Assembly (NCBI GenBank): GCA_014860355.1
Contig: JACZJV010000057.1
Coordinates: forward strand, 61,571 to 125,570
DNA from: Burkholderiales bacterium
GTDB lineage: Bacteria; Pseudomonadota; Gammaproteobacteria; Burkholderiales; SG8-39
Length of the DNA: 64,000 nucleotides
Direction: 5' to 3'
Part shown: positions 151-53,554 of the stretch, in pieces
Layout: every line of letters begins with the position of its first letter
Numbering within the stretch: position 1 is the first letter of the stretch
Program-made: the position numbers and the translations under genes
Notes under the pieces: model-generated
What the model saw: only the letters and a program-made list of their open reading frames with translations
What the model was told of the DNA's origin: nothing
Database searches by the model: none

Positions 151-1755
151 ATGAGCGCAGTCATCGATACCCACGGCCACGGTCACGCAGATCACGGCGG
201 CCACGAGCACCAACCTTCGGGGCTGATGCGCTGGGTGACCACCACCAACCACAAGGACATCGGCACGATGTACCTGTGGTTCTCGTTCACCATGTTGCTC
301 ATAGGCGGCGTCTTGGCGCTGACGCTGCGCCTGGAACTGTTTCAGCCCGGCATCCAGATCGTCAATCCGGAGTTCTTCAACCAGCTCACCACCATGCACG
401 GCCTGATCATGGTGTTCGGCGCGATCATGCCGGCCTTCGTGGGATTCGCCAACTGGCAGATACCGATGATGATAGGGGCGCCCGACATGGCGTTCGCGCG
501 CATGAACAACTGGAGTTTCTGGCTGCTGCCGGTGGCGGCGTCGCTGCTGGTGATTTCGTTCTTCGTTCCGGGCGGCGCGCCTGCGGCCGGCTGGACCATC
601 TACGCGCCGCTTTCGACTCAGATGGGGCCGGGCATGGACCTGGGCATTTTCGCCCTGCACATCATGGGCGCCTCCAGCATCATGGGCTCCATCAATATCG
701 TCACGACGATCCTCAATATGCGCGCCCCGGGCATGACGCTGATGAAAATGCCGATGTTCGTGTGGACCTGGTTGATCACCGCCTACCTGCTGATCGCGGT
801 GATGCCGGTGCTCGCCGGTGCGATCACCATGGTGCTCGCCGACCGCCATTTCGGTACCTCGTTCTTCAATGCCGCCGGCGGCGGCGACCCGGTGATGTTC
901 CAGCACATTTTCTGGTTCTTCGGCCATCCCGAGGTATACATCATGATCCTGCCGGCGTTCGGCATCATCAGCCAGGTGATCCCCGCGTTCGCGAGGAAAC
1001 CCCTGTTCGGCTACGCCTCTATGGTGTACGCAACCTCGTCGATCGCGATCCTTTCCTTCATCGTCTGGGCGCATCACATGTTTACCGTGGGCATGCCAAC
1101 TGCCGGACTACTGTTCTTCATGTACGCGACCATGCTGATCGCGGTGCCCACCGGGGTGAAGGTGTTCAATTGGCTTGCCACCATGTGGAAGGGCTCGATG
1201 ACCTTCGAAACGCCGATGCTGTTCGCGGTCGGCTTCATCTTCGTGTTTACGATGGGCGGCTTCACCGGACTGATGCTGGCGATCATGCCGGTGGACGTCC
1301 AGCTGCAGGACACCTATTATGTAGTGGCACACTTTCACTACGTGCTGGTGGCCGGGTCGCTGTACGCGATTTTTGCCGGCGCCTATTTCTGGATTCCCAA
1401 GTGGACCGGGCGCATGTATGACGAAACCCTGGGCAAGTGGCATTTCTGGCTGTCGCTGGTGTTCTTCAACATCACTTTCTTTCCGATGCATTTCCTCGGG
1501 CTCGCGGGCATGCCCCGTCGCATCCCGGACTACGCCAGCCAGTTCACCGAGTTCAACCAGATCGCCACCGTCGGCGCTTTCGGATTCGGCCTGAGCCAGC
1601 TGCTGTTCCTGTATATCGTGCTCAAAGTCAGCGTGTTTGCCCAGGGTGAGAAGGCGCCAGCCAAGCCCTGGGAGGGCGCGGACTCGTTGGAATGGACGCA
1701 TCTGCCGAGCCCCGCGCCGTATCACAGCTTCCATGAGGCGCCGGAAGTCAAATGA
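151..1755 (+). CDS. ctaD: Cytochrome c oxidase subunit I (aa3 type)
   Basis: Catalytic subunit of the inner-membrane haem-copper oxidase that reduces O2 to water with electrons from cytochrome c. The 534-residue protein has about 12 membrane spans. Expected metal ligands are visible: His83 (low-spin haem), HPEVY at 259-263 (CuB His and cross-linked Tyr), the His pair 308-309 (CuB) and HFH at 394-396 (haems). HPEVY marks an A-type enzyme. A His-rich stretch at residues 8-20 precedes the first span. Start chosen at ATG 151, with AGGAGA just upstream. Subunit II (ctaC) is not in the window and presumably lies upstream. The stop overlaps the next small ORF. Confidence 0.98.
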
Positions 1756-2665: not shown

Positions 2666-3520
2666 ATGAGCGAGCATGCTCAGCATCATTATTTCGTACC
2701 GCAGCCGTCCCACTGGATGATCATCGGCTCGTTCGCGCTGCTGTTCATGACGGGGGGCGCGGTGTTGTGGTTCAACGGCGCGGGCATCGGACGCTATAGC
2801 GTGCTGCTCGGTTTTGTCCTGCTCGTGTTCATGATGTTCCGCTGGTTCGGCGACGTGGTGCGCGAATCCGAGAGCGGCAAGTACGGCAAGCAGGAGGATG
2901 TCTCGTTTCGCTGGGGCATGAGCTGGTTCATCTTTTCCGAAGTCATGTTCTTCGCAGCATTCTTCGGCGCGCTCTTCTATGCGCGGGTGCTGTCTGTTCC
3001 CGACCTGGGCAGCCTGACAAGCAGGGAACTGCTATGGCCGGATTTCAGCGGCCAGTGGCCCAGCGCCGGTCCGGGCTTCAAGGACCCGTACACGCCGATG
3101 GCGGCCTGGGGCGTGCCTGCGCTCAACACCCTGTTGCTGCTTACCTCCGGCGTGACGCTCACCATCGCCCATTTCGGCATGATCGAGGGCAACCGCTTCA
3201 AGCTGAAGCTGTGGCTGTTCCTGACGATTGCGCTGGGCGTGACCTTCCTCGGTTTCCAGATCTACGAATACTCGCACGCCTATTCCGAGCTGAACCTGAA
3301 ACTGAGCACCGGCATCTACGGCACAACCTTTTTCATGCTGACGGGCTTTCACGGGTTTCACGTGACCATAGGCGCGATCATGCTCACGACCATGCTGTTC
3401 CGCTCGTTCGCGGGGCACTTCAAGCCTGACCACCACTTTGCGTTCGAGGCTGTGGCCTGGTACTGGCACTTCGTCGACGTGGTCTGGCTGCTGCTATTCA
3501 TCTTCGTCTACTGGGTGTAG
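2666..3520 (+). CDS. ctaE: Cytochrome c oxidase subunit III
   Basis: Integral subunit III, 284 residues with about seven membrane spans, which stabilises the catalytic core and its proton uptake. Typical features are the WFGDVVRE segment after span 2, the FFAAFFGALFYAR helix, and the C-terminal run GFHGFHV...WYWHFVDVVWLLLF. A strong ribosome binding site (GAGGAGAG) precedes ATG 2666. The gene ends the first oxidase transcription unit: an intrinsic terminator follows about 80 bases downstream. Confidence 0.97.
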   Translation: MSEHAQHHYFVPQPSHWMIIGSFALLFMTGGAVLWFNGAGIGRYSVLLGFVLLVFMMFRWFGDVVRESESGKYGKQEDVSFRWGMSWFIFSEVMFFAAFFGALFYARVLSVPDLGSLTSRELLWPDFSGQWPSAGPGFKDPYTPMAAWGVPALNTLLLLTSGVTLTIAHFGMIEGNRFKLKLWLFLTIALGVTFLGFQIYEYSHAYSELNLKLSTGIYGTTFFMLTGFHGFHVTIGAIMLTTMLFRSFAGHFKPDHHFAFEAVAWYWHFVDVVWLLLFIFVYWV

Positions 3521-42719: not shown

Positions 42720-42856
42720 ACCGGGCCGCGAGGCGCGGCGCGCAACGGCGACGTAGGACGGCGCATAGGCGCAGGTTATCCGCGAGCTAAAAGATTTTGC
42801 TTGCGCCGCGCCGAGTCCAGACTAGAATCGCCCGACAAAAAAGGCAGGGGAGGCCC

Positions 42857-43975
42857 ATGAACGAAGTCAATCCGGCGGTAGTTGCGACCACCGTGGCCTG
42901 GGCCAGTTTTGCCCTTGCTTTTGTTTTCGGTGCGATTGCCAACAAAACCAATTTCTGCACCATGGGTGCGGTCTCCGACATGGTCAACATGGGCGATTGG
43001 GGGCGCATGCGCATGTGGCTGCTGTCCATTGCCGTCGCGGTCCTCGGCGCCAGCGCGCTGCAGCTTGGCGGCCTGGTCGAATTGTCCAAGTCGATATACA
43101 TGGGCGCGAATTTTCCCTGGCTGTCCTATCTGGTCGGCGGGCTGGTCTTCGGCATCGGCATGACCCTGGGCTCGGGCTGCGGCAGCAAGACCCTGATACG
43201 CATCGGCGGGGGCAGCCTCAAGTCGCTGGTGGTGTTCGTGTTCCTTGGCATCTCCGCCTACGTCACGTTGAGGGGCCTGTTCGGCGCCTTGCGCGTGAGC
43301 GTGCTCGATCCGGTGTCGCTCAAGCTCGCCAGCGGGCAGGACCTGCCTTCGCTGCTGGCCCATGCCTTCGGCGCGGACAAGAGAACGATGCTCATGCTGA
43401 CGAGCGCGATAGTAGCGGGCCTGCTGCTGCTGTTCGTGTTCAAGGACCGCGAATTCCGCCGCAACTTCGACGGCATCCTCGGCGGCGTGGGCGTGGGGCT
43501 GGTGGTGGTCGGCGGCTGGTATGTGAGCGGCAAACTGGGTTATCTGGTCGAAGACCCGAACACCCTGCAGGAGGCCTTCGTCGCCACCAACAGCGGGCGC
43601 CTGGAATCGCTGTCCTTCGTAGCGCCGCAGGCCTACACGCTGGAACTGCTGATGTTCTGGACCGACACCAGTAAGATCGTCACCTTCGGCATTGCTGCGG
43701 CCATCGGCGTGGTCGCAGGCTCCGCAGCATATGCGCTGGCGAGCGGGAATTTCCGCTGGGAGAGTTTTCGTGACGCCAAGGATACCGGCAGCCACATGAT
43801 AGGCGGTGTGCTCATGGGTTTCGGCGGCGTGACTGCCATGGGTTGCACGGTGGGGCAGGGTATCACCGGCTTTTCCACGCTGGCGACTGGTTCCATGCTG
43901 ACCCTGTTATCCATCATCGCCGGCTCGGCCTTGACCATGAAATGGCAATACGCGCGCATGATGCGGGAAGCATGA
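42857..43975 (+). CDS. YeeE/YedE family transporter (thiosulfate/sulfur type)
   Basis: A 372-residue membrane protein with about nine spans from ATG 42857 (CAGGGGAGG upstream). The three conserved Cys motifs known from the thiosulfate importer TsuA are intact: NFCTMG (Cys34), GSGCGSK (Cys108) and MGCTVGQG (Cys330). It carries no fused TusA domain. Import of thiosulfate or another reduced sulfur species is likely; selenium-linked relatives exist, so the substrate is open. Confidence 0.9.
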   Translation: MNEVNPAVVATTVAWASFALAFVFGAIANKTNFCTMGAVSDMVNMGDWGRMRMWLLSIAVAVLGASALQLGGLVELSKSIYMGANFPWLSYLVGGLVFGIGMTLGSGCGSKTLIRIGGGSLKSLVVFVFLGISAYVTLRGLFGALRVSVLDPVSLKLASGQDLPSLLAHAFGADKRTMLMLTSAIVAGLLLLFVFKDREFRRNFDGILGGVGVGLVVVGGWYVSGKLGYLVEDPNTLQEAFVATNSGRLESLSFVAPQAYTLELLMFWTDTSKIVTFGIAAAIGVVAGSAAYALASGNFRWESFRDAKDTGSHMIGGVLMGFGGVTAMGCTVGQGITGFSTLATGSMLTLLSIIAGSALTMKWQYARMMREA

Positions 43976-44047: not shown

Positions 44048-44077
44048 TTGACACAAGTACCCCCGACAAACTAAAAT
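44048..44077 (+). promoter_or_regulatory. Sigma-70 promoter for tRNA-Lys
   Basis: TTGACA (44048-44053), 18-base spacer, TAAAAT (44072-44077), 13 bases before the tRNA. Both hexamers are near consensus. Confidence 0.8.
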
Positions 44078-44090
44078 CTCGCCTCTTTTC

Positions 44091-44166
44091 GGGTCGTTAG
44101 CTCAGCCGGTAGAGCAGCGGACTTTTAATCCGTTGGTCGCCAGTTCGAATCTGGCACGGCCTACCA
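44091..44166 (+). tRNA. tRNA-Lys (anticodon TTT)
   Basis: Full cloverleaf: acceptor GGGTCGT/ACGGCCT (first pair G-T), D arm GCTC-AGCCGGTAGA-GAGC type, anticodon stem GGACT/ (A)ATCC around CTTTTAA with anticodon TTT, T arm CCAG-TTCGAAT-CTGG and encoded CCA. Confidence 0.96.
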
Positions 44167-44292: not shown

Positions 44293-44334
44293 TTGATCTA
44301 GGTCAAAACATGCCTGGACCTGCGGGAAGATACT
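44293..44334 (+). promoter_or_regulatory. FNR/Anr-type promoter of the Kor-Nfn operon
   Basis: TTGATCTAGGTCAA (44293-44306) matches the FNR consensus TTGAT-N4-ATCAA with one mismatch. A -10-like GATACT lies at 44329-44334; if transcription starts near 44341 the box is centred at -41.5, the class II position. The first gene starts at 44566, leaving a leader of about 225 bases. The rest of 44202-44565 shows nothing else I can support. Confidence 0.65.
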
Positions 44335-44565
44335 TGCCCCGTCCCGTTGGTGGAATACGAGTTGAATGGCACTGGTTTGAATCATCAGCCCAAGGTATCG
44401 GCAGATTTTCTCGCGCTCGGCGCGGGCCCCGACAGCCGCCACAGGTTGAACTCGTCGAGCCGAAGGCAAGCCAAGTCCGGCAAATCAACTGCGCAAGACG
44501 ACGGTCCGGCGGATGCCACCAATTTCCCAGCTACCCGATAAATGAGCCGATCAAGGCGGTCCCAT

Positions 44566-45528
44566 ATGAACGCGAATGCAATGTCCAATTTCGAAATCGT
44601 GGCGCGGGAGGACTTCTCCGACGTCACTTATCTGCTCGAAGTGCGCCATCCGCTGATGTCCAAGGCGGCAAAGCCGGGGCAGTTCGTGATCGTCATGCTG
44701 AACGAGCAGGGCGAGCGCATTCCGCTCACCATCGCCGATTTCGACCGCAAGAAAGGAACGATCACGCTGGTGATCCAGGCGGTCGGCAAAACTACCAAAC
44801 AGATGCAGCAGGAATGCAAAGTCGGCACGGTGCTCTACGGCATGGTCGGCCCGATGGGCATACCCAGCCCGATCAGCCATGCGAAGAAGGTGGTGTGCGT
44901 GGGCGGCGGCCTGGGCGTGGCGCCGATCTTTCCCCAGGCACGCGGCTTCAAGGAAGCCGGCGCGTACGTGATCGCGGTCCTCGGATTCCGCAACAAGGAC
45001 CTGGTGTTCTGGGAAGAAAAGTTCAAGGGCTGCTGCGACGAACTCATCCTGTGCACCAACGACGGCTCCGCGGGGATGAAAGGCATGATCACCGACGGTA
45101 TCAAGGTCGCCATGGCCGGCCACTCCGACATCGACGAGGTGGTCGCGATCGGCCCGCCGGTGATGATGAAAGCCTGCGCCGACGCGACGCGCGCGGCCAA
45201 GATCAAGACCATGGTGAGCGTCAACCCCATCATGGTCGACGGCACCGGCATGTGCGGCGGCTGCCGCGTGAAGGTCGGAGACCAGGTGAAATTTGCCTGT
45301 GTCGATGGACCGGACTTCGACGGCCATCTGGTCGATTTCGACGACCTGATGCTGCGCCTGTCGCGCTATACGAAGGTGGAAAAGGAAGCTCACGAGCGCT
45401 GGTCGGAGAGCTGCCGCATGGCCAAGCAGGTCGGGGCACACGCGCTCGATGCGCTCGCGCGCGGCCGCGCGGGGCAGGCCGAATTGCTCGAGCTGCCCGA
45501 TCCGTTCGAGGATGCGCCCGGAGGTTAG
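44566..45528 (+). CDS. NfnA/SudB-like FAD and [2Fe-2S] NAD(P)H:ferredoxin oxidoreductase subunit
   Basis: A 320-residue ferredoxin-NADP reductase fold: FAD-binding barrel with ERIPLTIADFD, an NAD(P)-binding domain (VVCVGGGLGVAPIFPQA) and the C-terminal iron-sulfur motif DGTGMCGGCRV...FACVDGP, with the Asp and three Cys known as [2Fe-2S] ligands in Nfn small subunits. ATG 44566 is preceded by AAGGCGG; 44542 and 44581 are alternatives. The next gene encodes its usual partner, so the two likely form an NADP(H)-ferredoxin flavoprotein complex. Confidence 0.9.
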   Translation: MNANAMSNFEIVAREDFSDVTYLLEVRHPLMSKAAKPGQFVIVMLNEQGERIPLTIADFDRKKGTITLVIQAVGKTTKQMQQECKVGTVLYGMVGPMGIPSPISHAKKVVCVGGGLGVAPIFPQARGFKEAGAYVIAVLGFRNKDLVFWEEKFKGCCDELILCTNDGSAGMKGMITDGIKVAMAGHSDIDEVVAIGPPVMMKACADATRAAKIKTMVSVNPIMVDGTGMCGGCRVKVGDQVKFACVDGPDFDGHLVDFDDLMLRLSRYTKVEKEAHERWSESCRMAKQVGAHALDALARGRAGQAELLELPDPFEDAPGG

Positions 45529-45595
45529 CCGGTGGCAGCCACTTTTCGCGGCGCCGCGACGCGGCGCCGCAATTATCGCTAGAGGACAGATAGAG

Positions 45596-47095
45596 ATGGC
45601 GAAGAAGAAGACGATACGCACCATACCGCAGGAACGCACGCCGATGCGGGAGCAGGATCCGCAGGCGCGCGCGAAGAACTTCGAAGAGGTCGCCTGCGGC
45701 TATTCTCCCGAAGATGCGCAGCGCGAATCCGAGCGCTGCCTGATGTGCCCGGACGAGCCCTGCATTTCCGGCTGTCCGGTGGGCATTGACATCCCCGGGT
45801 TCATCCAGAAGATCAACGAGAAGAATTTGCGCGGGGCTTACGACATATTGACCGACACCAACCTGCTGCCGTCCATTTGCGGCCGCGTGTGTCCGCAGGA
45901 GAACCAATGCGAAGGCGTGTGCACGGTAGGCGATTCACTCGAAGCAGTCGCGATTGGGCGCCTGGAGCGCTTTGTCGGCGATACCGCCATCAAAGAAGGC
46001 TGGGTCAACATTCCTTTTATCGAACCCAACCGGTTCAAGGTCGGGATCGTCGGCTCCGGTCCGGCGGGCATGGCCTGCGCAGCGGACATGGCCAAGGCAG
46101 GCTGCGACGTCACGGTCTATGAGGCATTTCACCAGGCGGGCGGGGTGCTCAAGTACGGCATCCCCGATTTTCGCCTGCCGAACGAGGTAATCGACGCCGA
46201 GATCAACAATCTGAAAAAATTCGGTGTCAAGTTCGAATGCAACACCCTGGTCGGACGCCTGTTCACCATCGAGCAGATGATCGACGAGATGGGTTTTCAC
46301 GCGGTGTTCGTCGGCGTCGGCGCCGGCTACCCGACCATGCTCAACATTCCCGGGGACTCGCTGAACGGCGTGCTCTCGGCGAATGAGCTGCTGACCCGCT
46401 GCAACCTCATGCGCGCCAGGGATTTTCCGAACTTCGACACCCCGCTGCCCATCGGCCGCAGGGTCGCCGTGGTAGGCGCGGGCAATACTGCAATGGACGC
46501 AACGCGGGTGTCGATACGCCTGGGCGCCGAAAAAGTGTACTGCGTCTACCGCCGCTCGCGCACGGAAGCGCCGGCGCGGGCGGAGGAAGTCCACCATGCC
46601 GAACAGGAGGGCGTGGAATTCCACTGGCTCACCGCTCCGGTGGCGGTCCTGGACGACGGCAAGGGCAGCGTGCGCGGCATGCGCTGCGTGCGCATGGAAC
46701 TGGGCGAGCCGGACGATTCGGGCCGGCGCCGTCCGGTCCCGGTCGCAGGCAGCGAATTCGATTTCGAGGCCGATCTGATCGTGTACGCGATCGGCACCAA
46801 TGCGAACCCGATCATGGGCCAGACGTCCAAGCTGAAGCTGAACAAATGGGGCTATATCGGCGCCGACGAGAACCTGGCGACTTCGGTGGCGGGCGTGTTT
46901 GCCGGCGGCGACATCGTCACCGGCGCGGCGACGGTGATCGAGGCCATGGGCGCGGGGCGCAAAGCCGCGCGCAGCATGAAGGCCTATCTCGGCATCCGCG
47001 ATTCCGCACTCGCGTACAGCCAGGCAGACGGGGCCGGCACACTTTTCGGGATCGACACGCGGGAGCGTAATTTTGCCCGCGTGCGCATCGCCTAG
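45596..47095 (+). CDS. NfnB/GltD-like FAD and iron-sulfur oxidoreductase subunit
   Basis: A 499-residue flavoprotein of the glutamate synthase beta-subunit family. The N-terminal Cys motifs for two [4Fe-4S] clusters read CLMCPDEPCISGCP and CGRVCPQENQCEGVC; two Rossmann motifs follow, VGIVGSGPAGMACA for FAD and VAVVGAGNTAMDA for NAD(P). The C-terminal FAD segment is GVFAGGDIVTGAATVIEAMG. With the preceding gene it matches the two-subunit Nfn/sulfide dehydrogenase arrangement, not a glutamate synthase: no large GltB subunit is nearby. Start ATG 45596; a longer frame reads into the previous gene. Confidence 0.92.
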   Translation: MAKKKTIRTIPQERTPMREQDPQARAKNFEEVACGYSPEDAQRESERCLMCPDEPCISGCPVGIDIPGFIQKINEKNLRGAYDILTDTNLLPSICGRVCPQENQCEGVCTVGDSLEAVAIGRLERFVGDTAIKEGWVNIPFIEPNRFKVGIVGSGPAGMACAADMAKAGCDVTVYEAFHQAGGVLKYGIPDFRLPNEVIDAEINNLKKFGVKFECNTLVGRLFTIEQMIDEMGFHAVFVGVGAGYPTMLNIPGDSLNGVLSANELLTRCNLMRARDFPNFDTPLPIGRRVAVVGAGNTAMDATRVSIRLGAEKVYCVYRRSRTEAPARAEEVHHAEQEGVEFHWLTAPVAVLDDGKGSVRGMRCVRMELGEPDDSGRRRPVPVAGSEFDFEADLIVYAIGTNANPIMGQTSKLKLNKWGYIGADENLATSVAGVFAGGDIVTGAATVIEAMGAGRKAARSMKAYLGIRDSALAYSQADGAGTLFGIDTRERNFARVRIA

Positions 47096-47168
47096 GCTGG
47101 CGCATTTGCATACATCAACGGCAGCGAAACCTGCTCAATAGCGGCACAACAGCAGCAACGGAAGAAAA

Positions 47169-49079
47169 ATGAACCAATTGACCAAGCAGAAACCGGCCAG
47201 GAAGGCCGCTGACAGAATCCAGGCGGCGCCGGGACGCAAAGCGCCGCTGACGCTGAAAGAGCATATCGTCGAAATCATCAGCGATTCCGGCGAGGGCGCG
47301 CAAAAATGCGGCCAGTCGCTGGGCGCGATCGCGGCGCAGATGGGCAACGGCATCTGGACCACGGAAATCATCCCGGCCGAAATCCGCCCGCCGGCGCGCA
47401 GCGTCGCCGGCGCGAGCGGCAATCGCATCCGCATCGGCTCGGGCTACATCACCAACGGCGGCGACGAGACCGGCCTGGTGGTGGCGTTCAACGAACAGGT
47501 GCTGCTGGGCAGGGTCCGCGCAAAAGAGCTCAAACCCGGCTGCATCATCCTGCTGGAGGACATGTGGCGTACGCACGCGGACGCGAAAATCGTGGCGTCC
47601 TACATCGAGACCCATGGCAAGCTGGTGGCCGCGGGCTACAAGGTGTACGAGATTCCGATGGAGCGCGAGTGCCGCACCATGGTCGCCGATCCGCGCCGCG
47701 GCAAGAACATGTATGCCCTCGGGATGCTGTGCTACATCTACAGCCTGGAGCTGAAGCTGGCGGTCGACCAGATCGTCCTCGCCTTCGGCAAGAAGGACCA
47801 GAGCGTGGTCGATTCGAACATCATGCTGCTCGAGGCCGGGCACAAATGGGCGGCGGCCAATCTCGATTTCTGCTACCGCATCCCGGCGACGCGCTCGACC
47901 GAGCCGCAGCTCGTGGTCAACGGCAACACCGCGCTGGCGTTGGGCGTGCTCGCCTCGGGCATGGAGATCTGCGCCATGTACCCGATCACGCCCGCGACTT
48001 CGGCTTCGCACTATCTGTCCGAAGTGTTCGAGAAGGTGGGCGGCATGGTGCACCAGGCCGAGGATGAAATTGCCGCCTGCGCGTTTGCCATCGGCGCCTC
48101 GTACGCGGGCAAATGCACGATCACCATCACTTCCGGTCCCGGATACTCGCTCAAGCAGGAGGCCATCGGGCTGGCGGTCATGGGGGAGATACCGCTGGTC
48201 GTGGTGAACGTACAGCGCGGCGGACCGAGCACGGGGCAGCCGACCAAGATGGAGCAGGGTGATCTCATGACCGCCATATTCGGCAGCCATGGCGATGCGC
48301 CCAAGGTGGTGATGGCGCCTGGTACCATCGAAGAGTGCTTTTATTCGATCATTACCGCACGCAAGATCGCCGAAACCTTCAATATGGTGGTGGTGGTGCT
48401 GACCGACGCGGCCCTCGCCACTTCACAACAGCCGTTTGCGCGGCCGCAATTCAGCGAAACCTGGATGGCGCCGCCGGTCGATCAGAGCCCGGTTCCCGAG
48501 GGGGCCAAACCCTACGACTGGGACGAAAATACCGGCCTTGCGCGCCGCTTCATTCCCGGCCAGCCGGGCGGCATGCATACGCTTACCGGACTCGCGCACG
48601 ACCGCGACAGCCACGTCGCCTACGACGCAGAAATCAACGAACAGACCCTGCGCTTTCGCAGCCTGAAGCTGGCCGCGCTGCAAAAGACGCTGAAGCCGCC
48701 CAAGGTATTCGGCGAACCCAAGGGCGACCTGCTGGTCGTAGGCTGGGGCAGCACCAAGGGTGCCATCGAGGAAGCAGTCGAAATGTTGCGCGCCGAAGGC
48801 AAGAAAGTGTCCTCGCTGCACCTGCAGTTCCTGCAGCCGATGGCGCCGGGAATCAAGGAAATCATGCAGGGCTTCAAGAAAGTCATGACCATAGAGAGCA
48901 ACTGGAGCGACCGTCCGGAAGACAAGATCATCGATGAATCCAATCGCCGCTATTCGTCCATGGCCATACTGCTGCGCTCGCGTTTCCTCATCGACATCGA
49001 TTGCTTCAGCGAGGTGAAGGGCCAGCCGATCAAGCCCGGCACCATCCGCCGCGTGATGCTGGAAAAACTGAAAAAGTAG
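47169..49079 (+). CDS. korA: 2-oxoacid:ferredoxin oxidoreductase, fused gamma-alpha subunit
   Basis: A 636-residue protein. Residues ~30-215 are the gamma (CoA-site) domain (ISDSGEGAQKCGQSLGAIAA); residues ~230-600 are the alpha domain with AMYPITPATSASHYLSEVF and GGPSTGQPTKMEQGD. Together with the beta subunit encoded next it oxidises a 2-oxoacid with CoA and reduces ferredoxin. The fused form and sequence fit 2-oxoglutarate-type enzymes (KorAB), but pyruvate or other 2-oxoacids cannot be excluded. The intergenic gap to the NfnB-like gene is 73 bases. Confidence 0.92.
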   Translation: MNQLTKQKPARKAADRIQAAPGRKAPLTLKEHIVEIISDSGEGAQKCGQSLGAIAAQMGNGIWTTEIIPAEIRPPARSVAGASGNRIRIGSGYITNGGDETGLVVAFNEQVLLGRVRAKELKPGCIILLEDMWRTHADAKIVASYIETHGKLVAAGYKVYEIPMERECRTMVADPRRGKNMYALGMLCYIYSLELKLAVDQIVLAFGKKDQSVVDSNIMLLEAGHKWAAANLDFCYRIPATRSTEPQLVVNGNTALALGVLASGMEICAMYPITPATSASHYLSEVFEKVGGMVHQAEDEIAACAFAIGASYAGKCTITITSGPGYSLKQEAIGLAVMGEIPLVVVNVQRGGPSTGQPTKMEQGDLMTAIFGSHGDAPKVVMAPGTIEECFYSIITARKIAETFNMVVVVLTDAALATSQQPFARPQFSETWMAPPVDQSPVPEGAKPYDWDENTGLARRFIPGQPGGMHTLTGLAHDRDSHVAYDAEINEQTLRFRSLKLAALQKTLKPPKVFGEPKGDLLVVGWGSTKGAIEEAVEMLRAEGKKVSSLHLQFLQPMAPGIKEIMQGFKKVMTIESNWSDRPEDKIIDESNRRYSSMAILLRSRFLIDIDCFSEVKGQPIKPGTIRRVMLEKLKK

Positions 49080-49108
49080 AAGTAAAAGCAAAGAAAGGTG
49101 AAATAACC

Positions 49109-50107
49109 ATGAACATGATGTCCGACATGAAGTCCGCCACCTCCTGCCTGCTGGAAATGTGCGACGAGCACTTCGAGCTCGAAGACTATCAGAGCGGCGT
49201 TCCGCGCTGGTGCACGGGCTGCGGCGACAACGCCATTCTCGCGGCGGTGCAGCGGCTGTGCCGCGACGAAGCGCTGCGACCGGAAAAGACGGTGTTCGTT
49301 TCCGGCATCGGCTGCTCCAGCCGCTTTCCGCACTACATGAAGACCTACGGCTTCCACGGCATACACGGGCGTGCGCTGCCGGTGGCCGAAGGCGTCAAAA
49401 TGGCGCGCCCCGACCTGACCGTGTTCGTGAATACCGGCGACGGCGACTGTACCAGCATAGGCGCGGCGCACTGGATCCACGCCATACGCTACAACATGAA
49501 CCTCACGGTGTTCCTGCACGACAACCAGATCTACGGACTGACCAAGAAGCAGGCCTCGCCCACCTCGCCCATCGGAACCAAGAGCAATACCACCCCGCGC
49601 GGCAGTTATCTTGAGGCTTTGAATCCGCTGACTGTCACGCTGGGTGTGCAAAACGTATCCTTCGTGGCGCAGGCGGCCGACTGGATTCCGGAGGTGCTGT
49701 TCGACATCGTCAAGGCGGCCTATCACCACAAGGGACTGTCGTTCGTGCGCATCATTCAGCGCTGCCCCGAGTGGCTGCCGAAGGCGCTCGATCCGTGGAT
49801 GCACGACCCCAACAAGGTGCTGTTGCTCAATCACGCGAACGGCCTGCAGGCTAGCGCCGGCCTGTCCCGGGTCTACAAGAATCAGATCGAGCACGACCCG
49901 CTCAACATCGACCGCGCGCGCGAAATCGCCTCCAACACCGACATCATCCCGGTCGGGATTCTGTACAACAATCCGAAGGTTCCATGCTATGAGGACCTGC
50001 GGCACTTGGACAAGCTGCGCACCCCCGATCTGACCCGCGCTGGGCTCAATGCGGAGCTGGACAAGTACACCGTGTGGCCGCAGGGCGCGGAACAAAAAGT
50101 AGCCTGA
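49109..50107 (+). CDS. korB: 2-oxoacid:ferredoxin oxidoreductase beta subunit
   Basis: A 332-residue TPP and [4Fe-4S] subunit. Cluster Cys are in WCTGCGDNAIL and further on GIGCSSR; TPP-Mg binding is in NTGDGDCTSIG and HDNQIYGLTKKQASPTSP. ATG 49109 with AAAGGTG upstream is used; the longer frame overlaps korA. It pairs with KorA. There is no separate delta (ferredoxin) gene, but the next gene carries a C-terminal ferredoxin module. Confidence 0.94.
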   Translation: MNMMSDMKSATSCLLEMCDEHFELEDYQSGVPRWCTGCGDNAILAAVQRLCRDEALRPEKTVFVSGIGCSSRFPHYMKTYGFHGIHGRALPVAEGVKMARPDLTVFVNTGDGDCTSIGAAHWIHAIRYNMNLTVFLHDNQIYGLTKKQASPTSPIGTKSNTTPRGSYLEALNPLTVTLGVQNVSFVAQAADWIPEVLFDIVKAAYHHKGLSFVRIIQRCPEWLPKALDPWMHDPNKVLLLNHANGLQASAGLSRVYKNQIEHDPLNIDRAREIASNTDIIPVGILYNNPKVPCYEDLRHLDKLRTPDLTRAGLNAELDKYTVWPQGAEQKVA

Positions 50108-50202
50108 CACGGACAGCGCAACACGCCGGCGCGCGCCATCGACTTTACGACGGGCGCCTTAACCGATCACAGGGAAATAACCAGCAAGGCAGGTTGAATA
50201 AA

Positions 50203-52422
50203 ATGGAAGCGGATACCCAGGCACACGTTGCTTTTTTCCTCACCGGCAGGCGGCCGAGCGAGCATCTGGACGCAGTCGATGAACTGAAGCTGCGTCCGGC
50301 GCTATTCGCCGGCTACCGCGAGCTCACCCAGCTGCGCTACGACTTTCCGCTGGTGCTGCTCGCCCAGCCAACCGATAGCCTGTACGTGCAGTCGCTGTCG
50401 GGTCTGTTCGACACCGCTCTGGCAGCGGCTGCGCGCGGAAGCGACGCCGAGCGCATCCGCAAACACGCCCTGCGGCTGGAGCAGGAGATCCGCGTCCTGA
50501 TCGCCGCCGGCGCAGGCGGACCCCTGTCCGCGCTGTGGGAAAAAGCGGCAGGCCGCCTGGCAAAGGCCGGGGACAAATCGGACGCCGGCAGCTCGCTCGC
50601 CGACAGCCTGCGACGCACGCGTGCGGCAATCAAATTGGATGGCGAACTGGCCGACTGCGACGCGGCCTTGCCCGCGCGCCTGCTGCAACATGCCTGGAGC
50701 GCGGTGCAAAAGCGCAAGTCGCTGGCGTTCCGCAAGGATCTTGACCGGCTGGTGCTCAAACTCTCGGACATACTCAAGGCGGATTTCGAGCGTTCCGAAG
50801 CCGGGCGCAGCGCAAAACACCTCAAGGCGTCCGTAGGGTCCGGATTCGGCGACGCGTTCGACTTCGACGCGATGTCGCGCATGCTCGCCAAGGCGCTGCC
50901 GAAGGACGAGTTTCCGGAGAGCCGGCGCAAGCGCATACGCGAGCTGCTTGCGGTGCTCGGCGCGCAGCAATTCTATCCATCGGCTGGCGCGCCCGCGAAG
51001 AAGTCCGCGGCGGCCAGGCCCTATTCCTTCCTTTTCGACAGCTGCGCCGACGCGCTTGCGGCGTTCCGCGAGCGCATGCCCAGGCTGATCGAACTGGCCA
51101 AGGCGATCGCCGTCGCCGAACTCGAAATCGACGGGCAATACAGCGAAGCCAAGCACGACGCCTTGTTCGAGCAGTTCGGGGCGAACGGACTCGATCCGCA
51201 GGACCTGGCTCCGTTTCCCGACTATCTGGTTTGCGTCAACGCCGAAAAAATGCTGGCGGAAGAGCATGCGCAGCTGATGGAAATCCTCTCCTCGGGTTTG
51301 CCGATCAAGGTTCTGCTGCAGATCGACGACATTCTCGAAGACTCGCCCGACGGCGGAGGAGGGCTTTCCTCTGGCATGCGCAGCCGGCAGATCGCCAACA
51401 TGGCCATCGGCCTGAACGAAGTGTACGTGCTGCAGTCTTCCAGTTCGAATCTCTACCGCTTCCGCGAGCGCATGCTGCGCGGGCTGAGTTATCGCGGGCC
51501 CGCCTTGTTCAGCGTGTATTCCGGCGCGAACGCCGCGGCTTCCGATTTGCCGCCCTATCTGATGTCGGCTGCAGCGATGGAATCGCGCGCCTTTCCCGCC
51601 TTCACCTATGATCCGTCTGCGGGGCCGAACTGGGCGGCGCGTTTCTACCTCGAAGCCAATTCACAAGTCGATCTGGACTGGCCGGTTCAGGGCTTCGCCT
51701 ACGAGAACGAGGAGCACCAGAGGGTGTCGGAGGACCTCGCCTTCACTCTGGTCGATTTCGTCGCCAGCGACCGCCGCTACGCCCGCCATCTCGCGCGCGT
51801 GCCGCGGGAGAAGTGGAACGGCAGCATGATTCCGGTGGATGAGTCCCTCACGCGCGAGCGCAAGGGACTGCCGGACAAGGTTCCCAGCCTGCTGATGGTC
51901 GACGCGGACAACGTGCTGCAGCGCGTGATCGTCGATGAGCGCCTGATCCGCGAAGCGCGGCGCTGCCGCGATATGTGGCACAGCCTGCAGGAACTGGGCG
52001 GGGTGCACAATTCGCACGCGGAAAAACTGCTCGCGCGCGAGAAGAAGGCCTGGGAAGAGCGCATGCAGCAGGAGGCGGAAACCCACGCCGCAACTGCGCC
52101 GGTGGCGGCGACGGGCGCGGCCGCGGCGCCCGAGGTCGCGAGCGCTGCAGTCGAGGAAGAGCCGGAACGCTCGCCCGACGTAGCCTATATCGAGACCCCG
52201 CGCTGCTCGACCTGCAACGAGTGCACCACGATCAACGCCAAGATGTTCGCCTACGACAACAACAAGCAGGCCTACATCGCCGACATCAACGCCGGCACCT
52301 ACGCGCAGCTGGTGGAGGCCGCCGAGAGCTGCCAGGTGTCCATCATCCACCCGGGCAAGCCGCGCAATCCGAACGAGCCCGGCCTGGCCGAACTGCTCAA
52401 GCGCGCCGAGGCGTTTCAGTAG
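50203..52422 (+). CDS. Large protein: degenerate PFOR-type TPP domain plus C-terminal [4Fe-4S] ferredoxin
   Basis: A 739-residue protein in the Kor operon, 95 bases after korB. Residues 1-340 are helical and Ala/Leu-rich with no domain I recognise. Residues ~340-475 (PDYLVCVNAEKML, LPIKVLLQIDDILED, RSRQIANMAIGLNEVYVLQS, RGPALFSVYSG, ESRAFPAFTYDP) align in order with the last third of the TPP domain of NifJ-type pyruvate:ferredoxin oxidoreductase, but the DTEVYSNTGGQ Mg-TPP loop is replaced by QIDDILEDSPDGGGG. An Ala/Glu linker leads to a single-cluster ferredoxin motif, CSTCNEC (Cys668, 671, 674) plus Cys710. ATG 50203 chosen. Probably an electron-transfer or scaffold subunit. Confidence 0.8.
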   Translation: MEADTQAHVAFFLTGRRPSEHLDAVDELKLRPALFAGYRELTQLRYDFPLVLLAQPTDSLYVQSLSGLFDTALAAAARGSDAERIRKHALRLEQEIRVLIAAGAGGPLSALWEKAAGRLAKAGDKSDAGSSLADSLRRTRAAIKLDGELADCDAALPARLLQHAWSAVQKRKSLAFRKDLDRLVLKLSDILKADFERSEAGRSAKHLKASVGSGFGDAFDFDAMSRMLAKALPKDEFPESRRKRIRELLAVLGAQQFYPSAGAPAKKSAAARPYSFLFDSCADALAAFRERMPRLIELAKAIAVAELEIDGQYSEAKHDALFEQFGANGLDPQDLAPFPDYLVCVNAEKMLAEEHAQLMEILSSGLPIKVLLQIDDILEDSPDGGGGLSSGMRSRQIANMAIGLNEVYVLQSSSSNLYRFRERMLRGLSYRGPALFSVYSGANAAASDLPPYLMSAAAMESRAFPAFTYDPSAGPNWAARFYLEANSQVDLDWPVQGFAYENEEHQRVSEDLAFTLVDFVASDRRYARHLARVPREKWNGSMIPVDESLTRERKGLPDKVPSLLMVDADNVLQRVIVDERLIREARRCRDMWHSLQELGGVHNSHAEKLLAREKKAWEERMQQEAETHAATAPVAATGAAAAPEVASAAVEEEPERSPDVAYIETPRCSTCNECTTINAKMFAYDNNKQAYIADINAGTYAQLVEAAESCQVSIIHPGKPRNPNEPGLAELLKRAEAFQ

Positions 52423-52465: not shown

Positions 52466-53554
52466 TCAGGACCCGATACCAGCGACGGCCTGGTCGAAGA
52501 ACACCCGCGACTGCGCGAGCACGGCGTCGCGCCAGTGCGGCTCGCTCGGATAGAAGGCTTCCACATAGTCGGCGCGCACCTTGCGCGCGAGTTCGGGCTT
52601 GCGCGCTTCGCAGCGGCGCAGCCAGGGCAGCGAAATGGTGGCGCGCTGCATCTCGGCGCGCGTGCGCGTGCCGAATTCGACGACTACCGCCGTGGTTTGG
52701 GCTTGCGGCAGTTCCGCCTGGAAGGCGTCGACCAGTAGTCCGCTGTAATGCGCCAGCGCCTTGTGCGTCGAACCCTGGCGGTTGACCGCGCGTTCGCCCC
52801 ACCAGGCTCGCGCCCTCTCGTAGGCGGGTGAGCCCGGCTCGTGAAAGCACAGGAACACGTGATCGAGAAATGACCCGATGCCTGTATGCAGATCGATAAT
52901 ACCTGCGCGCCGCGCGTGGCCTGCGTGTGTGCGCACCGCATTGCGAAATGCCGTGTTCGCCCATTGGGCGCGATGCCCGCCGAAGAACAGCCCGTCCGGA
53001 TGCGAATATTGTCCGCCGTTGAAGGCGTCGGAAAACGCCTGTTCACCGCGGCTGTTGCGGAACGCATCGAGCGCGGCGAAAACACCGCGGATCGATGCTT
53101 CATCCCAGTCTTCGGGTGACAGTCCCGCATGCAGTTCGTCGTAGCCCGGGTTCGCCGGATAGGGCTTTGTGTGGTCTACAAAATTGCGGTTGAGGTCGAC
53201 GTTCTCCTCGGTGACGCGCTGCCCGTGGGCGAAGCCCCAGGGATTGTGGGCGTGCAGCAGCACCAGCGCGGTACCGGCGGGGATGCGCTTTGCGCCGCCA
53301 TCCAACATCCAGGCGCTTTGCGCTGCCGAGCCGGCGTATCCTTCGATGCCATGCGTGCCGCAACCGATCACCATGACGCTGGCTGCGCCCGGATCGCCGA
53401 GCGTGGCCACGTCCAGATAAAGCGCTTCGCCCTGCGGGCCGCGTTCGCCTGCCTGAGGGTAATGGGCAAGTTGCGCGCCGCTTGCGCGTGCCGCAGCCAG
53501 GAATCTGCCGCGCGCCTCGCTGTAGCTTGCCGCGAAGATTGATCGATCGCTCAT
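52466..53554 (-). CDS. DUF2817 family M14-like peptidase
   Basis: A 362-residue protein. GCGTHGIEGYAG (His and Glu spaced like the M14 zinc motif HxxE), NPWGFAHGQRVTEENVDLNR followed by NF, and IIDLHTGIGSF supply candidate zinc ligands and the substrate Arg, as in the DUF2817 clade of carboxypeptidase-like enzymes. No signal peptide, so it acts in the cytoplasm. It is the first gene after the converging Kor operon and lies 23 bases after the peptide ABC transporter genes, so it may trim imported peptides or N-acyl amino acids. Confidence 0.85.
   Translation of the reverse strand: MSDRSIFAASYSEARGRFLAAARASGAQLAHYPQAGERGPQGEALYLDVATLGDPGAASVMVIGCGTHGIEGYAGSAAQSAWMLDGGAKRIPAGTALVLLHAHNPWGFAHGQRVTEENVDLNRNFVDHTKPYPANPGYDELHAGLSPEDWDEASIRGVFAALDAFRNSRGEQAFSDAFNGGQYSHPDGLFFGGHRAQWANTAFRNAVRTHAGHARRAGIIDLHTGIGSFLDHVFLCFHEPGSPAYERARAWWGERAVNRQGSTHKALAHYSGLLVDAFQAELPQAQTTAVVVEFGTRTRAEMQRATISLPWLRRCEARKPELARKVRADYVEAFYPSEPHWRDAVLAQSRVFFDQAVAGIGS

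Follow-up and report, generated by a model that had tools for sequence, protein, structure and literature searches.

A five-gene Nfn-Kor operon conserved as a unit

The 64-kb window that we analysed (64,000 nucleotides of contig JACZJV010000057.1, from a Burkholderiales bacterium of the SG8-39 lineage) carries five genes in one direction: nfnA and nfnB, coding for a flavoprotein pair of the Nfn type, korA and korB, coding for a 2-oxoacid oxidoreductase, and a fifth gene, orf5 (Table 1). An earlier note on this DNA, made from the sequence alone, had described this set, and we find all five genes in the order given there, on the plus strand between 44566 and 52422.

Table 1 Features of the operon, of the orf5 product and of the surrounding DNA (positions in the window)
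Feature	Position	Strand	Remark
nfnA	44566-45528	+	320 aa; alternative in-frame ATG at 44542
nfnB	45596-47095	+	499 aa
korA	47169-49079	+	636 aa
korB	49109-50107	+	332 aa; residue numbers counted from codon 49112
orf5	50203-52422	+	739 aa counted from its ATG
orf5 PFOR-like body	50335-52002	+	residues 45-600; without thiamine motif or inner clusters
orf5 C152	50656-50658	+	sole cysteine remaining at PFOR proximal-cluster motif
orf5 linker	52015-52167	+	about residues 605-655; Ala/Pro-rich
orf5 ferredoxin domain, single [4Fe-4S]	52174-52362	+	residues 658-720
FNR/ANR-like box TTGATCTAGGTCAA	44293-44306	+	9 of 10 consensus positions; the segment described in the earlier note starts at its first base
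tRNA-Lys	44091-44166		precedes the five-gene set
YeeE/YedE-type sulphur transport gene	42797-43975		upstream of tRNA-Lys
DUF2817 gene	52466-53554	-	convergent; 43 bp past the operon end
COX1 (aa3-type oxidase)	151-1755		
COX3 (aa3-type oxidase)	2666-3520		

Scanning one genome per species, we confirmed 207 relatives of orf5 and kept the best 80 loci. The five genes stand in the same order and on the same strand in all 50 loci that extend 5.7 kb or more ahead of orf5. In 25 of 25 shorter loci where over 150 bp of sequence lie before orf5, korB precedes it; the 5 loci that start within 137 bp of orf5 are uninformative on gene order. The median intergenic gaps are 12-58.5 bp (54 loci). As the order is kept in 50/50 loci while the genes around the set vary, we conclude that the five genes are transmitted together. 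Thus, the linkage check proposed by the earlier note shows that the fifth gene is not rarely linked to korAB, and that the five genes form a conserved unit. The loci come mostly from metagenome-assembled genomes (MAGs) of Betaproteobacteria. Alpha- and Gammaproteobacteria make up a smaller share, and a handful of records, possibly misbinned, bear the titles Acidobacteria, Vicinamibacteria or Spirochaetia; several carrier genomes are incomplete or contaminated MAGs. The motif counts given below use between 51 and 80 sequences for each gene, none less than 85% complete; the orf5 set consists of the window and 79 of the 80 loci.

The fifth protein is a gutted PFOR half with a ferredoxin tail

The earlier note had taken the fifth protein for a large iron-sulfur subunit. 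This description needs correction: the orf5 product is the C-terminal half of a pyruvate:ferredoxin oxidoreductase (PFOR) in which neither the thiamine motif nor the inner iron-sulfur clusters survive, but one ferredoxin domain does. By sequence, it aligns with the C-terminal half of a 1647-aa PFOR-type chain encoded at another locus (L026), and a fold search recovered the PFOR fold of the C-terminal half. The thiamine-binding GDG motif was not found in four aligned orf5 proteins, and this region is variable across the 80 sequences. In the same four proteins, the cysteines of the inner and proximal [4Fe-4S] clusters are replaced or deleted, leaving only C152 at the proximal motif; this residue is invariant in 80/80 sequences and is aligned to the GSCLGCGE of the PFOR-type chain.

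NCBIfam assigned no family to the protein. Against Pfam Fer4_13, the window protein scored 23.3, just under the cut-off of 24.5, and relatives scored over it (32.7 and 53.5). Searching the PDB by sequence only, with orf5 or its profile, we obtained in either search no more than ferredoxin I and a single chance match; the PFOR relation is therefore missed by such searches. A large ferredoxin with an unknown body was considered and rejected, because the class-wide search finds the body in PFOR-type chains of about 1650 aa and the fold search agrees.

The ferredoxin cysteines C668, C671, C674 and C710 are invariant in all 80 sequences, and only one CxxCxxC motif follows residue 500 in 80/80 aligned sequences and in 120/120 fetched proteins. 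Between body and tail, Ala and Pro make up 54% of the last 40 residues ahead of the ferredoxin, compared with 18% of the body (counted in all but one of the 80 sequences), and the pLDDT falls below 50 at residues 631-654. The linker is likely flexible. The protein as a whole shows roughly double the divergence of its partners (mean distance 0.415 vs 0.19-0.23, 49 loci). The structure alignment is based on 53 of the 80 loci together with the window. One relative (L028, 10152-13070) is 972 aa long and carries three tandem ferredoxin domains on Ala/Pro-rich linkers. We rejected three ferredoxins as a general trait, since the longest of the 120 proteins listed for this version is 760 aa. A search for orf5 relatives gave 3993 matches at E 0.001; among the best 120, those that bear a name are called 'hypothetical protein' or 'ferredoxin'. 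The nearest named relatives among the matches listed belong to MAGs of Burkholderiales, Betaproteobacteria and Sulfuritalea.

NfnAB and KorAB retain their cofactor motifs

The cofactor motifs of the NfnAB and KorAB types are intact. NfnA, the subunit type with FAD and a [2Fe-2S] cluster, matches PRK06222 (370.5 bits, cut-off 220) and aligns end to end with 5jca_S of Pyrococcus furiosus Nfn. It carries the motifs VDGTGMCGGC and FACVDGP, and the residues D225, C230, C233 and C245 are invariant (51 sequences), matching the Asp(Cys)3 motif described for the Nfn [2Fe-2S] cluster (PMC8097209). NfnB, the subunit type with GltD-type FAD, two [4Fe-4S] clusters and an NADP(H) site, matches TIGR01316 gltA (584.2, cut-off 471.75) and, nearly end to end, 4ylf_B of Thermotoga maritima Nfn (E 9.5e-169). 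Its N-terminal cysteines (C48, C51, C56, C60, C95, C99, C105, C109), the glutamate of the second cluster motif (E102) and R319-R320 of the NADP(H) motif are all invariant (56 sequences). These motifs would allow electron bifurcation with NADH, NADPH and ferredoxin; the characterised Nfn reaction runs from NADPH to NAD+ and ferredoxin, and P. furiosus NfnII is described as an Nfn homolog without bifurcation (PMC8097209).

KorA is of the 2-oxoacid oxidoreductase alpha/gamma subunit type (TIGR03710 OAFO_sf, 501.5 bits, cut-off 482.75), with YPITP and the arginine of QRGGPSTG invariant (59 sequences). The source genome has seven POR_N-type places (contigs C48, C103, C14, C100 and C150), six of them over the Pfam cut-off, and one of the seven is the korA of the window. 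KorB scores over the cut-offs for Pfam TPP_enzyme_C and PFO_beta_C; its thiamine GDG motif and the cysteines C34, C37, C68 and C218 of one [4Fe-4S] cluster are invariant (64 sequences). The specificity position of KorB is Arg, as in the 2-oxoglutarate enzymes of Magnetococcus and Helicobacter, and so leans toward 2-oxoglutarate as substrate without settling it. We read it as a leaning because this position steers substrate choice in the Sulfolobus tokodaii OFOR, where a Lys-to-Arg change favoured pyruvate (PMC5020499). Kor enzymes need not be oxygen-labile, since that of Mycobacterium tuberculosis is described as tolerating air (PMC2773412).

KorAB and orf5 also occur with an Rnf-type exit

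Among 369 genomes of the class, 12 have a close KorA (at least 54% identity), and in 12/12 orf5 lies about 3 kb downstream on the same strand; the korA of one of these genomes, G073, is fragmented. The remaining KorA matches listed reach at most 41% identity. These searches scored at most 2 or 3 candidates per genome and therefore show presence, not absence. Of the 12, the source genome and G252 have the Nfn-type set. In the other ten (L027, L029, L031, L033, L034 and L151-L155), genes for an RnfB-like and a PFOR-like protein (about 1500 aa) follow orf5. The earlier note had considered that the Nfn pair might act independently with other partners. This stands in part and in another form: it is the KorAB-orf5 trio that has changed its partner, and Nfn is a replaceable exit for it.

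At L029, rnfC and then rnfD come next, both named by NCBIfam over the cut-offs. The arrangement of the ten loci looks like a Kor enzyme plugged directly into an Rnf pump. In L027 and L029, the inner-cluster cysteines of the PFOR-like chain are still present, whereas its proximal cluster, thiamine motif and terminal ferredoxin are gone. The 1647-aa chain of L026 (4497-9437) has both the thiamine motif and a terminal ferredoxin and stands behind an RnfB-like gene, as do its relatives of about 1650 aa in L030 and L032, where an RnfC-like gene follows. Finding the trio before RnfB-like and PFOR-like genes is as expected of an adaptor role for orf5. An evolutionary path may have led from an Rnf-linked PFOR with terminal ferredoxin, through a gutted PFOR pair driven by KorAB, to a lone orf5 with Nfn replacing Rnf.

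Low-oxygen control, aromatic degradation and genome context

Of 51 loci, the window among them, 26 have an FNR/ANR-like box that matches 9 or 10 of the 10 consensus positions in the 320 bp ahead of nfnA (not all are independent, as L055, L057, L058 and L066 share one box). Among 932 control windows such boxes occur in 0.6%, and among shuffled sequences in 0.4%. This enrichment supports a predicted low-oxygen control of the operon, which the earlier note had taken to serve electron supply at low oxygen. That note had also named a single promoter-like region; the sole sigma-70-like match (44048-44077) precedes the tRNA-Lys. The aa3 oxidase ascribed to the same organism is borne out by COX1 and COX3 in the window.

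The suggested link to aromatic degradation gains support from co-occurrence with benzoyl-CoA reductase. In 98 genomes of the window's family, orf5 is accompanied by the B subunit of a bcr-type reductase (over cut-off) in 26; 8 genomes have orf5 only, 12 the reductase only and 52 neither of them (p 4e-8; the genomes are related to one another). The 41 high-quality genomes gave 14, 0, 4 and 23, in the same order; outside the own genus the counts are 16, 4, 12 and 52, and by genus 12, 0, 3 and 11 of 26. Among the 8 orf5-only genomes, G006, G008, G011 and G411 have partial reductase matches and G435 has one below the cut-off. The 12 genomes with reductase but without orf5 count against a strict link, as does G252, which has orf5 but no reductase over the cut-off. 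The reductase genes of the source genome lie on another contig, with their own KorA-type gene adjoining.

A fixed neighbourhood with aromatic genes was not found around the loci; the family most often seen next to the operon, at 10 loci, is the GltD-like component of a second 2-oxoacid oxidoreductase cluster. This second cluster (GltD-like, KorA-like and KorB-like, 26-36% identical to the window's proteins) adjoins the operon at L048, L050, L051, L055, L057, L062, L065, L087, L089 and L090. The YeeE/YedE-type gene of the window (Table 1) is also kept next to the operon at L021, L023 and L025. We rejected two further candidates among the carriers. Replacement of a missing 2-oxoglutarate dehydrogenase fails, because the ordinary E1 is in the source genome and over the cut-off in 16/18 carriers. 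Nitrogenase as a general partner fails too, as nifH is over the cut-off in just 1/18.

A proposed role for the tethered ferredoxin between two enzymes

The five proteins likely work as one machine, in which the orf5 ferredoxin would carry electrons between the two enzymes at low oxygen; we infer their assembly, as well as the swinging arm, the substrate, the direction of electron flow and the physiological role. As a whole, we consider the best explanation, at a probability of roughly 45%, to be one soluble complex of KorAB, the orf5 ferredoxin and NfnAB that turns 2-oxoacid electrons and NADH into NADPH. KorAB would oxidise a 2-oxoacid, probably 2-oxoglutarate, yielding two low-potential electrons. 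The tethered ferredoxin would visit the KorB cluster, pick up the electrons singly and swing over to deliver them to the NfnB clusters. The bifurcating flavin of NfnB, working in the confurcating direction, would then combine ferredoxin electrons and NADH into NADPH. Low-potential electrons might thus be conserved in NADPH at low oxygen while the tricarboxylic acid (TCA) cycle oxidises the acetyl-CoA that comes from aromatic rings, and a facultative aerobe would keep as NADPH the energy that an ordinary dehydrogenase gives up as NADH.

Lipoyl domains swing in pyruvate dehydrogenase in a comparable way. We tentatively propose a new architecture, for which the odds fall a little short of even: a cofactor-stripped PFOR would serve as scaffold, and a ferredoxin on a flexible arm (three in one species) would link a KorAB engine to interchangeable exits, either Nfn or an Rnf ion pump, as an iron-sulfur analogue of the lipoyl arms. 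The invariance of the ferredoxin cysteines despite the faster divergence of orf5 speaks for the explanation as a whole, and so do the gene order, the 12/12 linkage to close KorA proteins, the intact Nfn and KorAB motifs, the Arg of KorB, the PFOR relation and cofactor losses of orf5, the linker composition, the trio in front of Rnf-type genes and the FNR-like box.

Several observations weigh against this explanation. The fold match of orf5 to PFOR has a VIA-align root-mean-square deviation of 7.4 over several domains and low Foldseek TM-scores (0.22-0.23); KorB scores 243.4 against TIGR02177 PorB_KorB, under the cut-off of 261.9; and the S. tokodaii exchange and the ordinary 2-oxoglutarate dehydrogenase, both mentioned above, point the same way. 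G252, which lies outside the family, carries the set and nifH over the cut-off but no benzoyl-CoA reductase over the cut-off. The co-occurrence with this reductase is explained no less well by a supply of ferredoxin than by NADPH formation.

The last two points bring forward the main rival, which we regard as rather unlikely: reduced ferredoxin would be the product of the module. Both enzymes would feed the orf5 hub, KorAB with electrons from 2-oxoglutarate and NfnAB with electrons bifurcated from NADPH, and the consumer would be benzoyl-CoA reductase or, in certain species, nitrogenase. Such a supply is in line with a report on Rhodopseudomonas palustris, which needs its fused Nfn, AadN, to degrade aromatics anaerobically and in which AadN probably supplies this reductase (PMC9973337). 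However, a large protein holds the orf5 ferredoxin on a tether, the reductase cluster of the source genome already has a KorA-type gene at its side, and the rarity of nifH among the carriers speaks against the nitrogenase branch.

The exchange of Nfn for RnfB-like and PFOR-like genes in 10/12 genomes means that Nfn is not obligatory for KorAB-orf5, and would suit a set that is co-regulated without forming one complex, NfnAB drawing on the general ferredoxin pool and orf5 being a separate electron carrier of KorAB; set against the gene order kept in 50/50 loci amid varying surroundings, we hold this to be improbable. Most improbable to us is the reverse operation, in which NADPH would be the source of low-potential electrons made by NfnAB, and KorAB would spend these on the reductive carboxylation of succinyl-CoA or acetyl-CoA. 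Ferredoxin-linked Kor enzymes are reversible, which counts in its favour. The sole recurrent neighbours, however, are the second 2-oxoacid oxidoreductase cluster at 10 loci, a weak point against it, as ATP citrate lyase was not searched for. Characterised Nfn enzymes bifurcate from NADPH (PMC8097209), again as the reverse operation would have it.

Relation to known systems and significance

Both subunits of NfnAB match the known NfnI structures (4ylf, 5jca) end to end and keep their cluster and flavin motifs, but here their operon also holds korAB and orf5, whose product would supply a ferredoxin of its own. Likewise, orf5 resembles the L026 chain in sequence and PFOR in fold, but is without the thiamine motif, the inner clusters and the N-terminal half. 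The acceptor of Thauera aromatica KorAB is free ferredoxin, which differs from the present set. Azoarcus evansii reportedly has an oxygen-sensitive 2-oxoglutarate:NADP+ oxidoreductase that reduces NADP+, serves aromatic ring reduction and has a smaller subunit set. The 2-oxoglutarate:ferredoxin oxidoreductase of T. aromatica is, by its description, also a Kor-type enzyme of an anaerobic aromatic degrader (PMC9973337). AadN shares with our set the tie of an Nfn homolog to anaerobic aromatic degradation, but it is a fused (pattern B) Nfn, whereas a two-subunit (pattern A) Nfn and Kor share one operon with orf5 here; the strains in the table of that paper carry aadN or korAB, never both (PMC9973337). 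KorABCD and Hdr-Flx of tubeworm symbionts are likewise described as a Kor enzyme proposed to partner an electron-bifurcating module, but with a four-subunit Kor, Hdr-Flx and the reductive TCA direction (PMC6315080, PMC11636981). The 'PFOR-like' gene and korAB(3) of the latter paper may perhaps be related to the Rnf-type version of this set. Among the open-licence papers listed in our literature searches, no title or abstract opening describes a Kor-Nfn-PFOR-half operon.

If our explanation is true, it shows how an enzyme can be stripped of its catalysis and put to new use as an arm that channels electrons, and aromatic-degrading facultative anaerobes would have a direct route from 2-oxoacids to NADPH. 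The energetics of benzoyl-CoA reductase would be tied to flavin-based bifurcation, and a protein family so far named 'hypothetical protein' or 'ferredoxin' among its best matches would gain a testable role.

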